Positions 1-60,945 of a DNA stretch of 64,000 nucleotides are shown piece by piece. Source of the DNA: Diplolepis rosae (Eukaryota > Arthropoda > Insecta > Hymenoptera > Diplolepididae); contig JAPYXD010000308.1 of NCBI GenBank assembly GCA_030998225.1, forward strand, positions 8,938,001 through 9,002,000, given 5' to 3'. Made by a program: the position numbers and the translations under genes. Within the stretch, counting starts at the first letter, position 1. Every line of letters begins with the position of its first letter. The notes beneath the pieces were generated by a model that saw only the letters and a list, made by a program, of their open reading frames with translations, did no database searches and was not told the DNA's origin.

Positions 1-272
1 ACATAATTGAACACGAAATAGGTACAGGTATCGCAGGAGTAATTGGAAAATCCTTTATTTCTAAATTGAATCTGCCTATTCCGGATTTAGTCAAATAGAC
101 AAAATTGATAAAAGTAAACTTGTAATTCACATTCAATTTTAGGCCCAAAAATTTCAAAAATAGAAATTTGAATTGAGCATTAAATACAGACGTCAAGATT
201 ACATCAAAGATAATAATAGTGTCAGTTCAGAGCACTCATTGATAATTTTCAAGCGTTAAAAAAGCCACCAAC

Positions 273-967
273 ATGCCTAAAGACAGCATTCAATCAGACA
301 AGACCGGAGCAACCGATTTTACCGGCAACATTTCGCGTACCTTAAACGACGCAATGGTAACATCCATGGCAGAATGTTTTGATATTCAACAAGGCATAAT
401 GAATGTGCCGATATTTAATGGTAAAAATATGCCAGTAAGAGACTTTATTCAGGGCGTGATAAACGGAGAAGCCAGCATACCTGCCAACTGTGAAAAACAA
501 TATATCAGGGCGGTTCTGTCCCGACTGAAGGGAGCAGCAAGAGATAGCACACATGGAAAAAGTTTTTTTCCATGAAGGACTTGATTGACCACCTCAAGCA
601 ACGATTTGCTCCACACAAGTCATACACGTGGTACACACACGAAATTTCGAACATCAAAATGACCCGTAACGAAAGTGTAAGTGAATACTACGATCGCCTT
701 ACATTATTAAAATCTGGTGCGCAAGCCGCACTAGAAGATAAATACGATAACGCGGATCTATTATTGGCCCCTCTCAACGATTGTGCGTTCGAATATTTTA
801 TTCGTGGACTTCCAGATGGACTCTCAGGAGTAGTAGAAAGCCGAAATCCAAATTCAATAGAAGCAGCTCTAAAATATGCCATAGAATACGAATCAAGACA
901 TCAATTAAACCCTCAATCCCCACATAATAACTTTTATGACAGAAATTTTGCTCAACCTGCTTACTAA
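273..967 (+). pseudogene. gag (capsid-like) of retrotransposon A, frameshifted
   Basis: The first part starts at ATG 273 and stops at 573-575. The second part continues in the -1 frame from about 572 and stops at a TAA (965-967). Together they read as one capsid-like protein, with FIQGVINGEA early and YYDRLTLLKSG, FIRGLPDGLSG and AIEYESRHQ in the second part, as in Gypsy Gag proteins. The junction lies in a run of seven T inside a perfect hairpin (CATGGAAAAA/TTTTTCCATG, 545-573). Loss or gain of a T is the simplest explanation; programmed slippage is possible but unusual within capsid. Gag would form the particle that packages element RNA. Confidence 0.75.
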
Positions 968-970
968 GGA

Positions 971-1396
971 ATGCGTGAGCGCAGCCCTGGTCCGCACGTC
1001 CGATTTTCGGTCTCTCCAGAAAGAAATAGGCCGAATGAAGATAGGCAAAATTCACCTAGATTAAATAGACGAAACCATTTCCCAACAGAACAAAACTACC
1101 CCAGTAGTTTCCCCCACCCCTATCCATACCCCCCATATCCACCCTATCAGCCATATCCTTATTACCCAAATCACTCTATTCCATATCCAAACCCAAACTA
1201 CCCCTATAAGAACCCCACCAACCCCCCTCGTACGCCATCCCCATCTCCATCAAACACAGAACATTTAAACTCCAGCCTTGCTCGCCGAGAGGACGCGACG
1301 ACGAGCACAGACCAAAAAGAGCGTCAAAGCAGGGTGAGGATATTAATGCAGCAAAGAAAGTCCTGTGTACAAAATTTAGAAGAGAATCACCTGTAG
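971..1396 (+). pseudogene. Proline/tyrosine-rich Gag tail of retrotransposon A
   Basis: This is in the same frame as the second gag part and separated from it only by the TAA at 965. It encodes a basic, then strongly Pro/Tyr-rich stretch (repeated PYP/YPP around 1110-1230), followed by a Ser/Thr/Arg-rich end. No CCHC knuckle is visible, which is notable because the knuckle occurs instead in the last gene of this element. It ends at 1396, overlapping the protease, which is read in the -1 frame from about 1390. Confidence 0.55.
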
Positions 1397-1923
1397 TAGA
1401 GATCAGCTCACCCAGTTTTAATGAAAACAAGGCCCAATTACTAGTCGACACTGGAGCAGACGTAAACATAATTAAGCTAAGCTCACTCGACGAAGACATA
1501 ATAGTATCACACAATAAAGCAATTGAAATAGCCGGTATAACCCAAAACAAAATCTCAACCCTTGGAACCGTTCAAATCAAAATCAAAAACTCAATAGTGA
1601 CCTTTCACGTCACAGAACCAGATTTTCCTATCAACACCGACGGAATTCTAGGAAGAGAATACCTCCGACAAGAAAAGGTAGAGATTTCATTTTGGCACAA
1701 CACAATCGTCACTCATTCCAACCCAACCAAACCTGTACCATTTGTAGACGAAGAATTCAAAATAGACAAGGAAAATATGGAAGGCTACAAAGGGACATCA
1801 TTAGGACCTATCCAGATCAAAGCCAGAACTAAACGAGTAATCCCCGTAGAAGTCACTAGTGGGCGAAGCAGCTGTAACAAACGCAAACGGAATTTGCCAC
1901 GTATTAGCAATCAACACAACTGA
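1390..1923 (+). pseudogene. Aspartic protease region of retrotransposon A
   Basis: Read in the -1 frame relative to gag, this encodes a retropepsin-like domain. The catalytic motif LLVDTGADVNIIK lies at about 1438-1476, and the conserved hydrophobic GILGREYL, equivalent to the flap-following ILG motif, at about 1640. It would cleave the Gag-Pol polyprotein. The frame runs on to 1923 but homology passes to another frame at about 1860 (GEAAVTNANGICHVLAIN), so an indel separates protease from reverse transcriptase. Confidence 0.8.
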
Positions 1924-4900
1924 AAAAGATTTAAGCATTGAAATACCCCCACAAGAATTAATACCCTTCGAATGTTATAATTTACGAGGAGAAGATTCAG
2001 ATGAATATTCTTTAGCCGAAAATTTTAAATTTGAAAGAGACAAAATAGAAGAAGTAATTGACAAATTACAGTTAGATCATCTCAACCAAGAAGAAAAGGA
2101 GCACGTTATAGAAATAGTACGAGAGTTTCCAGATAGCTTTTATCTACCTGGGGAACCGCTAATCTCAACACATCTGGTACGACATAAAATACATACAACA
2201 GACGAAATACCGATAAACACCCGCCCTTACCGGGTTTCACCAGCTCAGAAAGATGAAATAGAACGCGTCATAACTAAAATGAAAACTGAAGGAGCCATTC
2301 AAAATTCAAAATCACCCTACAACTCTCCATTACTAATTATACCTAAAAAATTGGACCACACCGGAAAAATAAAATGGAGAATAGTGATCGACTTCCGCCT
2401 TCTCAATGAAAAGACGATTGGCGATGCTTATCCTCTGCCAAATATTTCCGAAATTCTTGATCATTTAGGTAGAGCCCAATATTTTTCAGTATTTGACCTT
2501 GCGAGTGGATTTCACCAGATAGAACTAGACCTTGCGGACAGACCTAAGACAGCTTTCTCATCATTAAATAGGCATTATGAATACGTCAGAATGCCCATGG
2601 GATTAAAAAATTCACCAGCCACATTCCAACGACTAATGGATCAAGTGTTAACTGGACTGCAAGGAACAGAACTATTCGTATACCTAGAAGACATAGTTGT
2701 ATACGCAAACAATCTAGAAGAGCACGGAAAAAAGGTAAGGAGACTCCTGAAACGATTAAAAGAAGAAAACCTGTCACTGCAACCCGAAAAATGTGAATTT
2801 CTATTTAAGAAAATAGCTTACTTGGGTCACATCATTACCAGTGAAGGTGTAAAACCCGATCCAAAGAAGATAGAGGCTGTACAATGTTTTCCGCAACCCA
2901 AAAACCCTAAAAATATCAAACAGTTCCTAGGGCTAGCAGGATACTACCGGAGATTCATAAAAGACTTTTCCGCAATAGCAAAACCCTTGACGAATCTTTT
3001 AAAAAAAGAAGCAGTATTTAAATGGGGAAAAGAAGAAGAAGAAAGTTTCAAAATATTAAGACAAGCCCTATGTAATAGCCCCATCTTACAATATCCAGAT
3101 TTTAATAAACCGTTTACGGTAACGACAGATGCATCAGGTTTCGCAATTGGCGCTGTATTAAGCCAAGAAGTCCAAAATATGGACCTACCAGTAGCGCACC
3201 TATCACCAGCACTAACTGGACCCGAGTTAAATTATTCAACCACTGAAAAAGAATGTTTAGCAGTGTTATATGCTATAACAAAATTCAGATCCTATTTGTA
3301 TGGAAGAAAATTCACTCTTATGAGCGATCATGAGCCACTAAAATGGATAGACTCAGTCAAAGACCCAGGGCAGAGACTGATTCGATGGCGATTAAAGTTA
3401 CAAGATTACGAGTACACATTTAAGCATAAACCGGGCAAACTAAATATTAATGCCGACGCCCTCTCTCGAAATCCCGTAGAAAATAACGCAGCAGCATTAA
3501 AACAGATACGAGAATTACCCACCAGAATAATGCCGATGTTCACTCGACAGTCTAAAAAAATAGAATCCAGCACTAACCCTCAAACAAAAACCTCAGTCTC
3601 TGGCCTACTGAACAAGCCCTCAATTTTCACTAGAAAGGGAGTGAAGCCAAAAGATGAACTTTCAAACCCATTTACTTCAAAGCAGCTCAACTCCACTCTA
3701 TCTCGATCTAAATCCAGTACCTCTACTTCAGCAGAACTACAACTAGATAAAACTACCATCAGTAACCGACTGATCCGTCGACGAGCAGAAGAACAAAGAA
3801 CCAAAATAAGGCCTGACTATAAAGAAGACAGTAGCTCTGATGATACAGAAAAAGACTTGGAACCACCCCCAATTCTCCGAAAAAGAAAAATTTTACTACC
3901 AAGTTTAGATCTATCCCCTGCAGCATATCCACCCTCAACTATACCTAAAAGTGCCCCAGCAAATGTACCACAGGCCGAAACTGAATTCCCTTTTGAGGAA
4001 CAAGAAGAACCAATTCATACAATAGAACAACAAGAAGGACCTATAAAAATCGTGAGTCCACCTATCAGCGATAGTGAAGATAGTACTACAGATGATGACA
4101 ATAAGCGTACAGAAGAAAGTAAGTGCAAGCCATCAAAAGAGAGCCTGGAAAATTCATTTTTATTGTTTGAAAAATCTTTAAAGGCTCGCGAAGATTAGCT
4201 AGACGAAGAAAACACTGAAAAAGATGCCCCTATCCTCGAAATCACAGCCGTCTCAGAAGGAGAAGACAATCAGGAACTCCTAGAGGCCATTGAAGAACTA
4301 GAACCAGAAAGTGAGACTGAATTTGATAACCGAATCAAAACAGCAATTGAAACAGCACAGAAATTGATGAACGAAACACAGAAAGTGGGAAAGGAGGTGA
4401 ACCCAGAAATAAAGGAAAATTTGGACCCTGGAATTCCATCTTCTGATGAAGAAGATCAACCTACCCCCAATCCATCTCTACGGACCCGGAAAAGAGTAAC
4501 TTTTGGACCTGAGATACCTGCAACGCCAGACATGCTAGAAAACGTTACTCCTTCAACATTCAAAGAACCTAAAGCGATATCAACCCCATATTCAAGTAAT
4601 AAAGAAGACCACCCCAACACAGTAACTTCATCTACTAAGTACAATCCACGCAGAATGGACATGGGAATTCCTCAATTTTCGGAAAAACTCTCTGAAAACA
4701 CATCTAATGACAAGACTAAAAACACTTCTAAGCTTATCACCAGCATCCCTCCAGAATTACCCACCGGTTGTAGCTCAAACGCCCCTACTACAAACTTCAA
4801 AGTTCTTAGCTGCAGAGAAAACTTAACATATTTAAGGAATAATTACGTACATTTTCTTTCTGCTGACGTTGAAGTAACCACCCCTGTAGGAAGATTACTA

Positions 4901-5127: not shown

Positions 5128-6276
5128 TTGACAGACGACCTGACGAAGGAAGAACTGCTCAAAATGATAATCAGCGAGTTTGAAAATAGTAACATAAAGA
5201 TAAGTATATGTTACGGAAATGTAAGTACGCCTCCTGAGGAGTCACGTCTAGAAATAATTTCTGAAAACCACAATAGTAAGATCGGAGGTCATAAAGGAGT
5301 AAACAAAACATACCAAAGAATTCGAGAAAGGTACTTTTGGCCAGGAATCAAAGAACAAGTCACTGATTTTGTAAGAAAGTGCAAGGTCTGTCAAGAACAA
5401 AAAATTGTAAGAAACAAAATTCATGAACCCATGTTGATAACAGATACACCCCTGAATACCTTTGATAAGGTTTCTTCAGACACCGTAGGCAAATTACCAA
5501 CTACCCCAGATGGTAATAAGCACATACTAACCATGCAGGATAACCTTCCAAAATACTGCATAGCAGTACCAATTTCAGACATCTCAGCAGCAAAAATGGC
5601 CCATGCATTAGCAAAAAACCTTATTTCGCAGTAAGGAGTACCAAAGGCAATTCTCACCGATAAAGGAAAAGGATTTGTGAAAAACCTGTTGAGTAATTTA
5701 TCAAAAATATTTGGGATGAAACAAATAATCACCTCAGGCTATAGGCCACAATCTAATGGTTCACTAGAAAGGAGCCATGCCGTACTAATGGATTATGTTA
5801 GAGCTTATGCAGAAAATTATGACAATTGGGATCAACTTCTGCCCTTCGCCATGTTTGCTTATAACACATCTGTACACAGTGCAACAAAATTCACCCCATT
5901 TGAATTAGTGTTCGGAAAAATAGCTCGCACCCCTAGTTCATTCCCCAGTTATGAAAAACTAGAGACCTATGGTTCATTTTTACAAAAATTAATTTGCAGA
6001 TTAACAGAAATTAAAAATATGGCAGCTGATAATTTGATAAAGGCAAAACAAAACTCCAAACTAAATTACGATGCTAAAGCAAGATCGTTCCTTGGAAAAG
6101 TAGGAGATAAAGTCTATGTAAAAAAGGAAGTAAAAAAACACGGTAAATTAGACAGCAAATATTATGGACCTTTCGAAATTGTGAACCTCTTGGATAAACA
6201 CACAGCGATTTTGAAAGACAGAAACGAAACCCTACTCCAAAAACACGTAGACAAACTCAAAATAGCTTACGAATAA
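5128..6276 (+). pseudogene. Integrase of retrotransposon A
   Basis: This is a GPY-type Gypsy integrase in one frame, cut by a TAA at 5632-5634. The HHCC zinc finger is visible (HNSKIGGHKG ... CKVCQEQK, about 5269-5400). The catalytic triad survives: Asp in SSDTVGKL, Asp in AILTDKGKG and Glu in SNGSLERSH (about 5770). C-terminal motifs include NWDQLLPFAMFAYN, FTPFELVFGK and YYGPFEIV. It would insert the cDNA into the genome. It is separated from the linker by a shifted stretch at 4991-5127. Confidence 0.9.
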
Positions 6277-6312
6277 TCACTTAATATTAGAAACTAATAG
6301 TCTTTTTATTAT

Positions 6313-6314
6313 AG
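6313..6314 (+). promoter_or_regulatory. Possible splice acceptor before the last gene of retrotransposon A
   Basis: A pyrimidine-rich run followed by AG (TCTTTTTATTATAG, 6301-6314) lies just after the integrase stop and 8 nt before an ATG at 6322. In errantiviruses the third gene is made from a spliced subgenomic RNA; the 54-61 kb element has a comparable acceptor at 59961-59962 before its env. Assignment by position and sequence only. Confidence 0.4.
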
Positions 6315-6321
6315 GAAGGAC

Positions 6322-6915
6322 ATGTCTGGTCTCACCACCTTGGACTCACCACTCCCCACAGGACAGATCTACCCCAAATACATACACCCCAAATGAGATG
6401 TGGAACACCTCAAAAATCCAAAGGGAGCGTTGGAAGAACTATCAGCCGAATACGGATTTACCAAACCCTCTTATATCCTAATAAAATCAGAAGGACCAGC
6501 TCATAATAGGACTTTTTACGCATCATGTACTATAAAAGATTGTAAACGTAATAGGATTTTTTCAGAAAGTAGCAAAGGCGAAAACAAACTTAAAAATGCT
6601 GAACACGAGGCAGCAAGGAAAATTCTAAAAAACCTAGAGGATAATTATTATTTTAGTGAAGAGCGAAATGTTAATAATGATGTAGAAGATATTTTTGTTT
6701 TGTGTCAAGACAAAGAAAGTAGGATGCTCATTAAACTATATAAGTGGGAACAATGTTGCGAATATTGTTACTTACGAGGACATAAAGTAGAAAATTGTTC
6801 ACGAAAAATAAAACGTAATAAAAATTTTAAAGAGAATTACACTGTTACAGAAGAGGATTTTTGGGATCCTGTAAATAACACTAAAAATCCGAATTTAATT
6901 TATATCACCCAATAA
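6322..6915 (+). pseudogene. dsRNA-binding domain + CCHC zinc-knuckle protein in env position (retrotransposon A)
   Basis: An ATG at 6322 is in frame with the main open stretch (6400-6915), but a TGA at 6394-6396 lies between them. Counting from codon 6400, residues 6-80 match a double-stranded-RNA-binding motif: NPKGALEEL helix, KPSYILIKSEGPAHNRTF with the hallmark GPxH at 32-35, and KLKNAEHEAARKILKNL for the Lys-rich AA helix. Residues 120-133 form a perfect Cys-X2-Cys-X4-His-X4-Cys zinc knuckle. No signal peptide or membrane segment is seen, so it is not an envelope. dsRBD proteins bind A-form RNA duplexes. A role in RNA packaging, reverse transcription or protection from Dicer is inference. 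The stop could be a disabling mutation; initiation downstream of it would need a non-ATG codon. Confidence 0.75.
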
Positions 6916-6972: not shown

Positions 6973-7005
<33 letters not shown>

Positions 7006-55143: not shown

Positions 55144-56431
55144 ATGTCTCGAGCACAATCTCCCGTCAGGGCCCAGTCCCCCTCTTACACCACTGACGAA
55201 TTACTAGTAAGGGTTCTCAGCCAAATGGAAACTCTGACTATCTCATTCAACGCCCTGAAAAAAGAAAACGAAAATAGGATAGATGAAATTTCAAGATTAT
55301 CAAAGAAATTAGGAGGAGCAGGGACAGTAGAAACAGATAGTGAATCCCAGCAACGACCAGAAGCGACAGACGACCATTCTTCGGTCGAAGAAAAAACATT
55401 CCAAAGAAAAGAAACATTTAGACCAAGACAGGAAAATATTTACGGTCAATCACAATTTTTCCCAACAACTGTCCCAACAGCACCACACGAGGAACGGAAA
55501 ATGGGAGCCAAGTTAGCAACTGAAACGATAAAGCCAATTAACGGTCAGGACGACATGGGAGTAGAAGATTTTATAAAAACGGTAAAGAGAGCTAGAATAA
55601 GATGCGAAGAACCAGAAATTCTTCTAGATTTAATTTTAGCAAAGAAAATTACACACGTGGCAGAAAAAGCCATTAGATATATGCAAATAAACTCCTATGA
55701 AGATTTATACGCGGCACTCAGACAAAATTTGAGACAAACCAGTTCATTAATTTCATTAAAATCTAAATTAGAAAGCTGCAAGCAAGGCTTAACAGAAACG
55801 GTTCAGAACTTCACGACGAGGTTTCGACAAATAACAAATGAAATAAATTACCTAGTCCAATCCCAGCACGTAAACCCCACTAAACGAAGACTTAAAAATA
55901 GAATTGGAAGAAGAAGAAGCCGTTAACCGTTACTTATTAAATTTAAAAAGAGAAATTGGAATGCAGGTACGTCTGTTAAAACCGAACACAGTAAACGAGG
56001 CTCAAGCATTAGCCATCGAAACTGAAACATGGTTAAAAGACAGCCAACCTGTCAGACAAATTATCAAACCACCAGTAAAAATATGGGCCAAATCACCCGG
56101 ACCACCTCGACTCAGTGCAAATACTACACCTAGAGCACAGAATAGTACCACACCACTGAGTGACAGATTTAAAATGAATTGCTTCAAGTGCGGCAAAATA
56201 GGTCATATATCTTCACAGTGCCAAGTGAAGCAGGGTTTTCCCCCAGGCCATGGTTTCAAGCGACCACCTCCGGTAAGAGCAATCCAAGAGGAAGAAACAG
56301 AAGCGGAAAACATGACAGAGGAAGAAATAACGGAGCAACTGATCTTCGAGGAATCAGCCGAATTTCTTCCATATGCGGAAGATTACGAACAATCGATGCC
56401 AGAAGAAAAACTGGAAGATACAGATTATTAG
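55144..56431 (+). pseudogene. gag of retrotransposon B, one frameshift
   Basis: From ATG 55144 a Ser/Glu-rich N-terminus leads to a capsid-like domain (KPINGQDDMGVEDFIKTVKR, DLYAALRQNLRQTSSLISLK, VQNFTTRFRQITNEINYL). A +1 shift at about 55880 moves to the frame LEEEEAVNRYLLNLKREIGM, then a zinc knuckle CFKCGKIGHISSQC (Cys-x2-Cys-x4-His-x4-Cys, about 56184). It ends at TAG 56429-56431 and overlaps pol, which is in the -1 frame. The leader 54321-55143 has no long frame and would hold packaging signals. Confidence 0.85.
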
Positions 56432-59106
56432 TAGACTCAGGAGCTGCTATAAACATAATCAAAGAAGAAATATTGGATGATAGAGACGAAAGGAAATCTA
56501 CCCACAAAACATTCCTAATGGGTAACGATCGGCTTATCTCTAAATATTCTACAAAATTAAACTTTTTTGGACAAGAACACGTTTTCTACATAGTACCCAA
56601 CGATTTTCCCTTACCAGAAGGAGGTATAATTGGAATTAAATTCTTTGAAAAATATCCAAGATATGCGATCACGAACAGTCACCTCGTGCTAAATAAGGTA
56701 AAGCTACCTTTGCACCTAAGCAATGATTTCATACCAGGAAAATCCGAAAAGATATGTACCATTTCAACTGACGCAGAAGATCAAGATATTATCATTATAG
56801 ATGATAAGGAAATCCCCGACGGACTCTACACTATACGAAACGGACAAATAAAAATCCCATTGAAAAATAATGAGGATTACCCTAAAGAAGTAAATCTCCA
56901 GATTAGCTACGAACCTATATTAAAAATAATCACAAATGAAAGTAATGGACCTCAAATGACATTTCGACTAAATGAATTATTGAAAGCTTCAAGATTAGAT
57001 CATTTAGAAAAAGACCAGAGAGAATTCATCAAAAAAATGATAGCCAGATACTCGGAAGTTTTCACGTTAGAATCAGACCCACTTCCATGTACTAACCTTA
57101 CCGAACATCAAATAGTACTTAAAAATGGAAAAATAATCAATCTAAGATCCCACAAATTACCCGAAAAACACCGACAGTTTGCCGTAGAAGAAACAGAGAA
57201 GTTACTAAAAAAGGGAATTATAAGAGAAAGCCAATCACCATACAACTCACCTTTATGGATAGTACCGAAAAAAGGAAATAAATTAAGAATGGTAATTGAC
57301 TACAGAAAGATTAATGAAGACACGGATCAAGATGCTTACCCATTACCAATGATCGATGATATACTAGATCACTTAGGAAAAGCTAAGTTCTTTTCTGCCT
57401 TTGACCTCTCAGCTGGATTCCACCAAATCCCGATGAAGGAAGAAGACAAAAAGTACACTGCGTTTTCTACAACCCAAGGACATTTCGAATACAATCGCAT
57501 GCCTTTCGGTTTAAAGAACGCACCAGCCACTTTCCAAAGAATGATGGATAATGCATTCAGAGGATTAATCGGAACAAAATGCTTTGCGTACATAGATGAC
57601 ATTGTGATATTCGGAAGCTCAATTCAGGAACATAATGAGAACTTAGTAGCAGTCATGGAAAGAATCTACCAGTTAGGACTAAGATTAGAACCGAGAAAAT
57701 GTGAATACCTTAAACCAGAACTAGAATACCTTGGACACATAATAACCAAAGAAGGAGTCAAACCCAACCCTGAAAAAATAAACTGCATAAAAGAATTCAG
57801 ACCATTGAAAACTGTAAAAGATGTGCAATCATTTTTAGGACTTGCAGGTTACTATAGGAAATTCATCAAGAATTTCTCTACTATAGCGAGACCCTTAACA
57901 AAGCTAACTCAGAAAGAGACAATATTCGATTGGACCCCAGACTGCGAAAAAGCATTTTACGATTTGAAGAACGCATTGGTAATCGCACCAGTTTTAAAAT
58001 TCCCTGATTTTTCCAAACAATTTATACTGACTACGGACGCATCCAACTGTGGATTAGGAGCAGTATTGAGCCAAGACGGGCACCCTTGTCTTTTTATATC
58101 AAGAACATTGAACAAAGCGGAAGAAAAATACACCACCTCTGAAAAAGAATTTTTAGCAATTGTATGGGCTATGAAACACCTCAGACAATATCTTCTCGGA
58201 AAGAAATTCAAAATTCAAACAGACCACCGTGCTTTAGTTTGGCTACACAATGTGAAAGACCCTAGCTCAAGACTTTTACGATGGAGACTTCGTATGGAAG
58301 AATACGAATACGAAATAGAATATGTAAAAGGAAAAGAAAATAAAGTAGCGGATTGTCTATCCAGACTTTTTCCCATCACTAAGGACACATTACAAGAAGC
58401 AATGGAAAAAACCGGAATTAGTACTGAAGAAGAAGAACCAAGCTTGGAAGACCAGTCACCGGAAATAGAAACATTCGACAAGCCGCGAATAACAAATGAC
58501 GAAATATTAAAAGAAAAAATTAAATTAACCGCAAGGCGAATGAGAGAACCATCAGAAAATGAAACCACAGAAACGGAAGAAGAAATCACGGAAACACCAG
58601 GAGACAATACTAATTTATATACGGATTTTATAAATTGGAAACTACAACCAGTCAAAGGCAAAATTAAAACAAAGCCTAACCCTATCGGCAAACTTTGGAA
58701 AGAAATAACTAAGGATGAAATGCCTATGTACAACGAAGAAGATTGGCTGTATAAATTAAGTTGGTTCATCGAAGAATTCGTTAACAGGAAACTTTCAATT
58801 GTTAGATTATCCTTTGGAGATCCTCTATTTACATTTCTGGAGCGAGAAGTAATTCAAGAAATAATGGAATTCCTATCAAACTATTATCCAGATAAGAATT
58901 TCCACATTTGTTTCTCTACAACCCGAGAATTAACTAAGGAAGAACGAAAACAAATTATTAAAGAAGCTCATAGGGACCACACTGGAGAACAAAATACTAT
59001 CGAAAAAGCCAAGAGAATCGGAATTTGGACCAACATGGACCAAGACATTAAGGACTATGTCAAAAAATGCCCTATATGCCAACTACAAAAAGACCACGCG
59101 AATTAA
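56179..59106 (+). CDS. pol of retrotransposon B: protease, RT, RNase H, start of integrase
   Basis: Open for 975 codons; real pol begins near RYRLLVDSGAAINIIK (about 56414), so the ATG at 56179 is not the biological start and expression would need -1 frameshifting from gag. RT has SPYNSPLWIVPKKGNK, VIDYRKINEDTDQDAYPLP, FSAFDLSAGFHQIP, MPFGLKNAPATFQ and an intact catalytic FAYIDDIVIFG. RNase H has LTTDASNCGLGAVLSQDG, TTSEKEFLAIVWAMKHL and IQTDHRALVWLHN. After an acidic linker comes the integrase HHCC finger (HRDHTG ... CPICQ). The frame ends at 59106, where the integrase core shifts frame. Confidence 0.92.
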   Translation: MLQVRQNRSYIFTVPSEAGFSPRPWFQATTSGKSNPRGRNRSGKHDRGRNNGATDLRGISRISSICGRLRTIDARRKTGRYRLLVDSGAAINIIKEEILDDRDERKSTHKTFLMGNDRLISKYSTKLNFFGQEHVFYIVPNDFPLPEGGIIGIKFFEKYPRYAITNSHLVLNKVKLPLHLSNDFIPGKSEKICTISTDAEDQDIIIIDDKEIPDGLYTIRNGQIKIPLKNNEDYPKEVNLQISYEPILKIITNESNGPQMTFRLNELLKASRLDHLEKDQREFIKKMIARYSEVFTLESDPLPCTNLTEHQIVLKNGKIINLRSHKLPEKHRQFAVEETEKLLKKGIIRESQSPYNSPLWIVPKKGNKLRMVIDYRKINEDTDQDAYPLPMIDDILDHLGKAKFFSAFDLSAGFHQIPMKEEDKKYTAFSTTQGHFEYNRMPFGLKNAPATFQRMMDNAFRGLIGTKCFAYIDDIVIFGSSIQEHNENLVAVMERIYQLGLRLEPRKCEYLKPELEYLGHIITKEGVKPNPEKINCIKEFRPLKTVKDVQSFLGLAGYYRKFIKNFSTIARPLTKLTQKETIFDWTPDCEKAFYDLKNALVIAPVLKFPDFSKQFILTTDASNCGLGAVLSQDGHPCLFISRTLNKAEEKYTTSEKEFLAIVWAMKHLRQYLLGKKFKIQTDHRALVWLHNVKDPSSRLLRWRLRMEEYEYEIEYVKGKENKVADCLSRLFPITKDTLQEAMEKTGISTEEEEPSLEDQSPEIETFDKPRITNDEILKEKIKLTARRMREPSENETTETEEEITETPGDNTNLYTDFINWKLQPVKGKIKTKPNPIGKLWKEITKDEMPMYNEEDWLYKLSWFIEEFVNRKLSIVRLSFGDPLFTFLEREVIQEIMEFLSNYYPDKNFHICFSTTRELTKEERKQIIKEAHRDHTGEQNTIEKAKRIGIWTNMDQDIKDYVKKCPICQLQKDHAN

Positions 59107-60006
59107 GAATCAATCAGAAAGTATAATACCCGACATACCACTCAATCCAAATGATAAAATAGCACTGGATATTTTTGGACCGTTATCCACTACACCTAGA
59201 GGTAACAAATACATACTTAGTATTCAGGATAGATTGACCAGATACACCACTTTAATACCATTAGAAAGTGAAACCTCAACAGCAATAGTAGAAGCTCTGA
59301 TAGAACAATATATTTACATTTATGGATCCCCTAAAACTATTCTCACTGATCAAGGGTCTAACTTTCTATCTGAGTTAATGGACCAATTTGAGAAAGCTTT
59401 GAAAATCAAACATATTAAAACTACAGCATTCCATCCACAATCCAACGGAAACATTGAAAGAATGCACTCAACCCTGAATAATCTGATCAAAACTAGCATG
59501 GCAGAAAATCAGAATAACTGGGACGAAAATCTAAAATATGTAACATTCGCAATAAATTCAACAGTAAATCAAACCACGGGATTCACACCCTTTGAACTCA
59601 CGTTTGGAAGATTACCAAATATACCATCTCAAATTGAAAACTCACCCAATTTAACCCATCAAGATCTGATTAGAAAATGGAGGAAAAACACGAGGAAAAC
59701 ATCAGAAAAGCTAGAGAGAGAATCCAAGTAGAATTAGAAAAAACTAAGAAAAGATTAGATGAAGGAATAATAAGAACACATCCTTTATACAAGCCTGGAA
59801 GCCTAGTCAAAATCCTTAACAACACCAAACAAAACAAATTAGAACAATCCTGGAAAGGTCCTTACGAAGTTATAGATTACCTAGATAATAATAATCTACG
59901 CATTAGGAATAAAGATAAAATACTGAGAGTACACATAGATCAGTGTATGCCTTATTTTTTAGATGAGGACTCTAGTACTTCTAATAGCGGCAATGGCCAA
60001 CTGTAA
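59057..60006 (+). pseudogene. Integrase core and C-terminus of retrotransposon B (two frames)
   Basis: The core at 59107-59731 carries Asp in KIALDIFGPL, Asp in TILTDQGSNF and Glu in SNGNIERMHS, a complete D,D-35-E triad, then FTPFELTFGR. The C-terminal GPY-type part is in another frame (59677-60006: PLYKPGSLVKIL, SWKGPYEVIDYL). Both breaks fall in A-rich runs (about 59090-59100 and 59685-59695). The last codons overlap the env start. Confidence 0.88.
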
Positions 60007-60945
60007 AGCCAACTACACCTTACAACCGTCAAAATTCCCATTATAGAACAGGAAGAGGGTACCATCAAACATATTATACCTATCCCTTATCCTATCCAAA
60101 ACCTATATTTTGCAGTAATTCCCGACCATTACTATTTAATAAAATTTAGAGACTCATATGTAATTACTGACAAGGAAACAATAAATAAATGTACGACGAT
60201 AAGCGAATATAAAATTTGCGAAAGAAGCCAACCAAACCTTAGGCTGACTGACAGTGAAACATGCGAAGCTACGATATTCAAGCGATACTCAGAGAACAAA
60301 TGTAAAACTTCAACTTTTGCTTTACACAAAGAAACCTTCATACCCGTACTAAACGGATACATAATAGTACTAATGAACGAGGTATATTTAGATATTAGCT
60401 GCGAAACAGGAACAGAACACCTAAAGATTAAACAACCCTCACTACTAACGGGCTCAAATTGTAAAATCTATAATGGAATGGACGCACTGTACCTTAGCAA
60501 AAAACTAAAGGGACAATTTTACAACGAATTCAATGCGACCTACAACATTAGTTACTCTAACGACGATCTAAAAACCTTAGAAAGTAAATTAATACGTCTC
60601 CCTAAAATCATAGATAACAATAAATTACGACAAGCCAAATTAAGCCTAGACGATGCAGAAAATATGTTAAAATCAATAGCCATTAACAGAAGACTAAGAA
60701 CATGGAGAGAAACAACTATGGATTGGTTAAGCTATTTAGGTTACGCAGCGCTAGGATTAGGATCAGCCTATGTTCTGTACAGATTAGAAATACTCGAATT
60801 CATACAAAAGTGTATGCCCAAAAAACTCTGTATATTCTGTGTAAAAACAAAGGTAACAACGCCGACGAACGTCGTCACGTACAATTCTAGCTTGCAACCC
60901 TTGGTGATCACCGAAATACCAAAAGTAAGGAGGGTAAGAATTTAG
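59963..60945 (+). pseudogene. env-like gene of retrotransposon B, short and frameshifted
   Basis: ATG 59963 directly follows an acceptor-like TTATTTTTTAG and encodes a signal peptide (MRTLVLLIAAMANC). A frame break near 60030 precedes the main part, open to 60945 in another frame. Regularly spaced Cys (INKCTTISEYKICE, SETCEATIF, ENKCKTS, DISCETG, GSNCKIY) match the C-terminal ectodomain of insect errantivirus / baculovirus F-type envelope proteins. A membrane span follows (WLSYLGYAALGLGSAYVLY, about 60724) and a basic tail. No furin site or fusion peptide is seen, so the N-terminal half of a typical F protein is absent. Such proteins mediate cell entry when complete; this one is truncated and broken. 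Confidence 0.7.

Follow-up and report, generated by a model that had tools for sequence, protein, structure and literature searches.

The window analysed here, a stretch of 64 kb, contains a Ty3/Gypsy-type element on the plus strand, with recognised parts between positions 273 and 7000 (Table 1). Reverse transcriptase (RT), RNase H and integrase stand in Ty3/Gypsy order, both in the window copy and in the relatives fetched for comparison, and the integrase is followed by an accessory gene encoding a double-stranded-RNA-binding domain (dsRBD) and a zinc knuckle.

Table 1 Features of the window element and of a second dsRBD-bearing element
Feature	Position	Strand	Details
gag region	273..1396	+	split in this copy over ORFs 273–575, 572–967 and 971–1396
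pol: reverse transcriptase, RNase H	1859..4198	+	RVT_1 5.5e-34, RT_RNaseH 7.3e-36
Integrase	5128..6276	+	zinc-binding part 5128–5634; core and C-terminal part 5677–6276
Splice-acceptor-like site, AG 6313–6314	6300..6324	+	ATG of accessory gene at 6322
Accessory gene, N-terminal part	6322..6399	+	read directly; frame broken by an in-frame stop in this copy
Accessory gene, remaining open frame (171 aa)	6400..6915	+	ORF list; public and own-genome relatives
dsRBD	6418..6636	+	PF00035 (dsrm), aa 7–79 of 6400–6912
Zinc knuckle CX2CX4HX4C, CEYCYLRGHKVENC, then basic tail	6757..6798	+	read directly
Break point	6985..7000	+	homology to relatives stops at about this point, at a TA repeat
Element L058, L052, L059	G000:C21:305000-312300	minus	full order read at one locus only

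Layout of the window element

Gag is a single 380-amino-acid (aa) frame in the relatives L035 and L040; in the window, Retrotrans_gag on ORF 572–967 reaches E = 9e-5 and 23.1 bits, below the Pfam cut-off of 24.1. The integrase matches Integrase_H2C2 (1.9e-22), and rve_3 (0.036) and SH3_Tf2-1 (6.2e-4) both fall below cut-off. The 3′ part of the pol frame 1859–4198, after RNase H, has no retroviral Pfam match. The window copy lacks env and the 3′ end of the element: its tail matches tabulated relatives for 46–85 bases past the accessory stop (mostly 72–85), and the relatives continue into env. A convincing pair of LTRs was not found in the sequence stretches examined (the window and the fetched relatives). 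The first test returned no repeat of 60 bases or more; the others gave one 113-base pair (80%) within L041, one 225-base match between different loci and otherwise at most two matches, 24 and 33 bases long.

The first-pass annotation had stated that the Gag tail carries no knuckle, and this holds: CX2CX4HX4C occurs in none of the three forward frames of window positions 1–2400 and in neither of the 380-aa Gag frames of L035 and L040.

Upstream of gag, an ORF of ~120–134 aa is common to the two families of the element described below (~75% DNA identity over ~265 bases; L049 from 3195 into window positions 1–95, L050/L040 and L051/L035). By eye it resembles the end of a retroviral protease, with DPN or DPT replacing the active-site triad, and the cut pieces tried gave no significant Pfam match. 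Elsewhere in the window, positions 55144–60945 hold an apparent second Gypsy-type element (B), judged from its ORFs. Its Gag has a knuckle at 56180, and a 190-aa ORF without significant Pfam match starts at 60373.

The accessory gene and its domains

The accessory frame opens with an ATG seven bases after the acceptor-like AG and is interrupted in the window copy by a TGA at 6394, as had been read at the outset. The N-terminal part ahead of this stop is open in most of the best 30 own-genome relatives and in public relatives such as P0001. There is no stop within the match in 26 of these best 30 rows, and the open frame in most is 204–216 codons long, compared with 172 in the window.

The first-pass annotation described a textbook dsRBD. 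The domain itself is borne out: the frame 6400–6915 matches Pfam dsrm (E = 9.7e-11, 42.5 bits, above the curated cut-off of 23), and its best matches among the sequences of solved structures are TARBP2 and Loquacious (Loqs). For P0001, a full-length public relative, AF2 predicts the dsRBD stretch as a helix, three strands and a helix, that is, the α-β-β-β-α fold of a dsRBD (pLDDT 65–88 as a block over residues 41–110, low elsewhere, mean 54). Foldseek places Loqs dsRBD1 (1.8e-5), TRBP2 (2.4e-5) and the dsRBD–dsRNA crystal structure 1di2 (2.8e-5) at the top ranks.

The word textbook does not survive inspection of the positions that we take to contact RNA, namely the helix-1 Glu, GPxH and KKxAK. 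All 46 loci keep the helix-1 Glu. At GPxH, 30 of 33 first-family loci have GPAH, and the motif is missing from all 13 second-family loci. The last Lys of KKxAK is replaced by Glu in 45 of 46; KKEAK is found in two distant genes of the same genome (L048:105-494 and L053). Because the contact residues are partly lost, binding of dsRNA by the accessory protein is plausible but not certain, and its domain may possibly be a protein-binding dsRBD.

The Cys-X2-Cys-X4-His-X4-Cys knuckle reported in the first-pass annotation is present in the window and its motif recurs in 44 of 48 fetched loci. The Pfam zf-CCHC model, proposed there as a check, does not match the window protein, P0001 or P0011; zf-CCHC_3 matches the distant L048 gene at 5e-4, below cut-off. 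Because no Pfam knuckle model matches, we base the knuckle call on the motif and its recurrence in the loci.

The acceptor-like site has a counterpart in 43 of 48 loci, where AG, seven bases and an ATG stand at the matching place (29 of the 30 best own-genome loci, 12 of 13 second-family loci (L031–L043), and L044 and L045). No such AG is found at the matching place in L041 or L046, and L028, L047 and L048 match elsewhere; within this set of 48, one copy is represented twice, by L028 and L048, and L001 is the window copy itself. A pyrimidine-rich tract precedes the site in the second family. No splice donor was identified in the loci read. The Env of Drosophila errantiviruses is described, in the portion of PMC12992720 available to us, as typically made from a spliced subgenomic RNA, and by analogy the accessory gene is probably translated from a spliced subgenomic mRNA of its own.

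Copies, families and gene order

A search of the same genome (757.7 Mb, 428 contigs), in which 150 of 1918 candidates were scored and which therefore sets a lower bound, returned at least 150 matches to the accessory gene, mostly in two families. Members of the first are ~88–99% identical to the window (full-length rows, with a few at 72–82%) and those of the second ~45–52%. Each of the 18 fetched 9.5-kb loci has an integrase match just upstream on the same strand; 14 of these loci also have RT or linker matches farther upstream, and L043 to L046 have integrase only. The search downstream of integrases that the first-pass annotation suggested gave relatives within this genome: the accessory gene follows within 1.5 kb in 46 of the 49 best integrase rows, most often at 126 nt. 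It follows in 25 of the next 40 rows (second family), among the matches listed; in 7 of the 15 second-family misses, an integrase-to-env gap of 1253–1310 nt leaves space for a gene outside those matches. The last nine integrase rows (~60% identity) have no accessory gene among the matches listed, which comprise only the two families, and other dsRBD genes could follow these integrases. A captured exon unique to the window copy is excluded by the 150 or more matches together with the 18 loci and the 46 integrase rows.

Relative to the window, the second family is ~82% identical in RT (range ~69–85), ~70% in the integrase core and ~50% in the accessory protein. By these identities the accessory gene evolves faster than pol, yet it is retained.

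In the relatives, a long open frame follows the accessory gene. We read a putative F-type fusion motif in it, and L035:7884-9500 matches Baculo_F (PF12259) with E = 2.6e-43. By coordinates and among the matches listed, an env hit lies within 2.5 kb downstream in 41 of 74 second-family accessory rows, and an accessory row lies upstream of 25 of the 41 best env rows. The env ATG stands 261 and 285 nt past the accessory stop in two family-1 loci, and 502–693 nt past it, after an acceptor-like site, in five family-2 loci; no ATG opens the env frame in L003 or L034. The accessory gene sits between pol and a Baculo_F-type env, that is, it is an extra gene. Its earlier description as the third gene of the element, in the env position, is ruled out by the env further downstream in these relatives. 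In one copy (G000:C154:3972222, L028/L048), the accessory gene lies inside a 1798-codon open frame and the C-terminal part of the integrase is missing.

Selection on the accessory gene

The accessory gene is under purifying selection near the level of the integrase and is intact in many copies. Its dN/dS (pooled pairwise NG86) is 0.276 over 33 first-family loci and 0.178 over 13 second-family loci, values that may be lowered somewhat by the choice of loci by protein similarity. Calculated instead as a ratio of means, with the duplicate L048 included, the values are 0.253 and 0.155; the integrase core, also as a ratio of means, gives 0.283 (22 first-family loci) and 0.137 (9 second-family loci). 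For the first and second families, respectively, the dsRBD segment gives 0.33 and 0.23 and the knuckle segment 0.35 and 0.09. A stop falls within the region in 6 of 33 first-family loci and in 0 of 13 second-family loci.

Other dsRBD genes in the same genome

A scan of the genome with dsrm returned at least 149 matches, including a high-copy family with frames mostly of 244 or 262 codons. The protein encoded by L052 (G000:C21) is 243 aa long, contains two dsRBD stretches (1.7e-12) and has a CxxC stub at its C terminus; its AF2 model has a mean pLDDT of 35. This two-dsRBD gene has at least 150 matches at 85–100% identity, and in 46 of the 60 top rows it is followed after 99–103 nt by another gene, whose product matches the dsRBD weakly (E = 0.0027, 18.7 bits, below the cut-off of 23) and has a CX2CX4HX4C knuckle. 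Both dsRBD genes of this element are high-copy, many copies being 97–99% identical. At G000:C21, the integrase is followed in turn by a 99-aa ORF, the gene for a Monjiviricetes fusion glycoprotein (5.2e-217), the two-dsRBD gene, the dsRBD–knuckle gene and the start of a Baculo_F-like frame (sub-threshold match, 2.4e-4). The public protein P0056 fuses the end of the glycoprotein to the start of the two-dsRBD protein, which supports the junction between these genes. A 2023 survey (PMC10084718), in the portion available to us, reports Gypsy fragments adjoining Jingchuvirales glycoproteins, two cases being in complete transposons, and finds 'no clear evidence' of capture by Gypsy. The 99-aa ORF between integrase and glycoprotein (L058:1817-2113, minus strand) gives a sub-threshold match to CARD (PF00619; E = 0.0012, 19.2 versus 23.9 bits); a retroelement with a death-fold accessory gene would be remarkable.

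Two further families of dsRBD–knuckle genes are present among the matches listed, including L048:105-494 and L053. No integrase was found directly upstream of these two genes in the 0.7–0.8 kb read at one locus each, and no env match was found downstream of L053 or between the L048 gene and the next gag. Cys-rich ORFs (L062:126-470 and L060:3-527) lie directly upstream of the two distant genes. We considered whether the L048 gene is part of the neighbouring family-1 element and rejected this, since the intervening ORF is truncated.

Relatives and origin

The window protein has 18 public relatives; one further row, P0019, carries the name RNase III (E = 0.61). A profile search gave 61 public rows at E ≤ 0.01, the final four being RNase III-like by name or domain annotation; the remaining public relatives derive from ENA contigs no longer than 12 kb and are not evidence that other species have the gene. 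A scan of viral contigs yielded 40 pattern stretches and no relatives.

The element types, together with Loqs/R2D2-like and Staufen-like exons, suggest an insect host; a DNA search that passes over simple repeats returned no array of the telomere repeat TTAGG. Eight host dsRBDs from four loci were compared, the names Loqs/R2D2-like and Staufen being our interpretation of the sequences. In a database of 18 domains, the host domain closest to the window family is the second dsRBD of the Loqs/R2D2-like gene (36% identity over 69 aa, E = 4e-11). Slightly better matches come from the dsRBDs of the two distant knuckle genes (6e-13 and 2e-12); of the two-gene element, one gene's dsRBD matches much worse (0.004), and for the two dsRBDs of the other gene no match to P0001 is listed. 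That the domain was captured from a Dicer-partner gene is no more than a lead.

In a viral structure library, two small DRBM proteins head the list: one from an iridovirus (173 aa, E = 2.2e-6, with poor superposition outside the domain) and then one from a nudivirus. The seadornavirus dsRNA-binding model matches at 4.3e-8, far below cut-off, and RNase III does slightly better.

Accessory ORFs in LTR elements are already known, as the available portions of two reports state (PMC5408684, PMC7264820). In the titles and abstract starts that our searches of open-licence papers listed, no dsRBD gene is described in an errantivirus, and within these limits the content and position of the accessory gene appear to be new.

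Function of the accessory protein

Our best explanation, in which we place about even confidence, is that this is a probably spliced accessory gene of an errantivirus-like, Baculo_F-env-bearing endogenous retrovirus, encoding an RNA-binding protein that blunts the siRNA defence. The gene may thereby help the element to cope with RNA silencing by its host. A spliced subgenomic mRNA would yield a protein of ~197 aa with a Loqs/TRBP-like dsRBD, the knuckle and the basic tail. This protein would bind duplex or structured RNA of the element or, alternatively, would bind Dicer in place of the host's Loqs/R2D2-like partner; either kind of binding would blunt the siRNA defence during infection or transposition. 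Three observations lead us to favour an RNAi antagonist: the domain belongs to the Dicer-partner type, other repeats of this genome contain different dsRBD genes, and the iridovirus and nudivirus DRBM proteins rank first and second among the viral structure matches. Suppression of RNAi has been proven for a dsRBD protein from an iridovirus. The altered contact residues, however, count against simple duplex binding, and resemblance to Loqs and TRBP is expected for many dsRBDs of this general type. Against an antagonist of RNAi also stands the stronger constraint on the knuckle than on the dsRBD in the second family (0.09 versus 0.23), which fits an RNA chaperone equally well. Both functions proposed in the first-pass annotation, an RNA chaperone and a shield for duplex RNA, are possible.

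The main rival, which we rate as distinctly less probable, is a nucleocapsid-like helper that supplies in trans the knuckle missing from Gag and acts as an RNA chaperone in packaging, dimerization or reverse transcription, the dsRBD serving to hold structured genomic RNA. The recurrence of the knuckle across the loci and its strong constraint in family 2 agree with such a role, as do the knuckle-free Gag frames examined here and the knuckle in the Gag of element B. Errantivirus Gags usually lack a knuckle, however, so there is perhaps nothing to replace; moreover, the two-dsRBD gene of the G000:C21 element ends in a CxxC stub only, although its neighbour has the full motif. An improbable reading is that the protein regulates RNA export, splicing or translation in the manner of Rev or Rex, binding structured element RNA and favouring export of the unspliced form. 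The gene has an acceptor-like site and, in family 2, another stands ahead of env, which would then imply regulated splicing; the basic tail after the knuckle would fit as well, but we know of no dsRBD protein with such a role in errantiviruses. That the gene is a captured host exon or a passive, functionless remnant seems to us very improbable: its dsRBD does resemble those of the host and some first-family loci carry a stop within the region, but its dN/dS is near that of the integrase, the second family shows no internal stop, and two families ~50% apart keep the domains, the acceptor-like site and the position.

Invertebrate retroviruses are usually described as having gag, pol and env only. 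We put forward, tentatively and with less confidence than the role of the single gene, that a lineage of insect endogenous retroviruses is armed with dedicated mimics of the RNAi pathway, that is, Dicer-partner-type dsRBD genes with spliced mRNAs of their own, that the high-copy elements with two dsRBD genes and a glycoprotein belong to the same picture, and that this amounts to an invertebrate arms race through accessory genes in the lentiviral style. If so, a conserved, selected accessory gene of RNAi type would be a counterpart of the accessory genes with which vertebrate retroviruses fight host defences, and one could then test whether errantiviruses take active measures against small-RNA silencing or merely hide from it.

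Comparison with known systems

Among LTR retrotransposons, those of bdelloid rotifers resemble the present element in carrying a captured extra gene after pol, reportedly expressed from spliced messages, but their ORF3s are described as env-like, GDSL esterase, DEDDy exonuclease, coiled-coil or TM, and neither 'double-stranded RNA' nor 'zinc' appears as a term in that text (PMC5408684). Loquacious, TRBP and R2D2 share the fold and sequence of the dsRBD; unlike them, the accessory protein has a single dsRBD joined to a knuckle, is borne by a retroelement and has partly lost its RNA-contact residues. The DRBM proteins of iridoviruses and nudiviruses and the dsRNA-binding proteins of seadornaviruses are likewise small proteins with a dsRBD, but they are not retroelement-borne and, to our knowledge, have no knuckle. 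Errantiviruses of the gypsy and ZAM type share with the present element the order RT, RNase H, integrase and the Baculo_F-type env after pol with an acceptor-like site; the element described here differs from them in its short ORF before gag and in the extra dsRBD–knuckle gene between pol and env.
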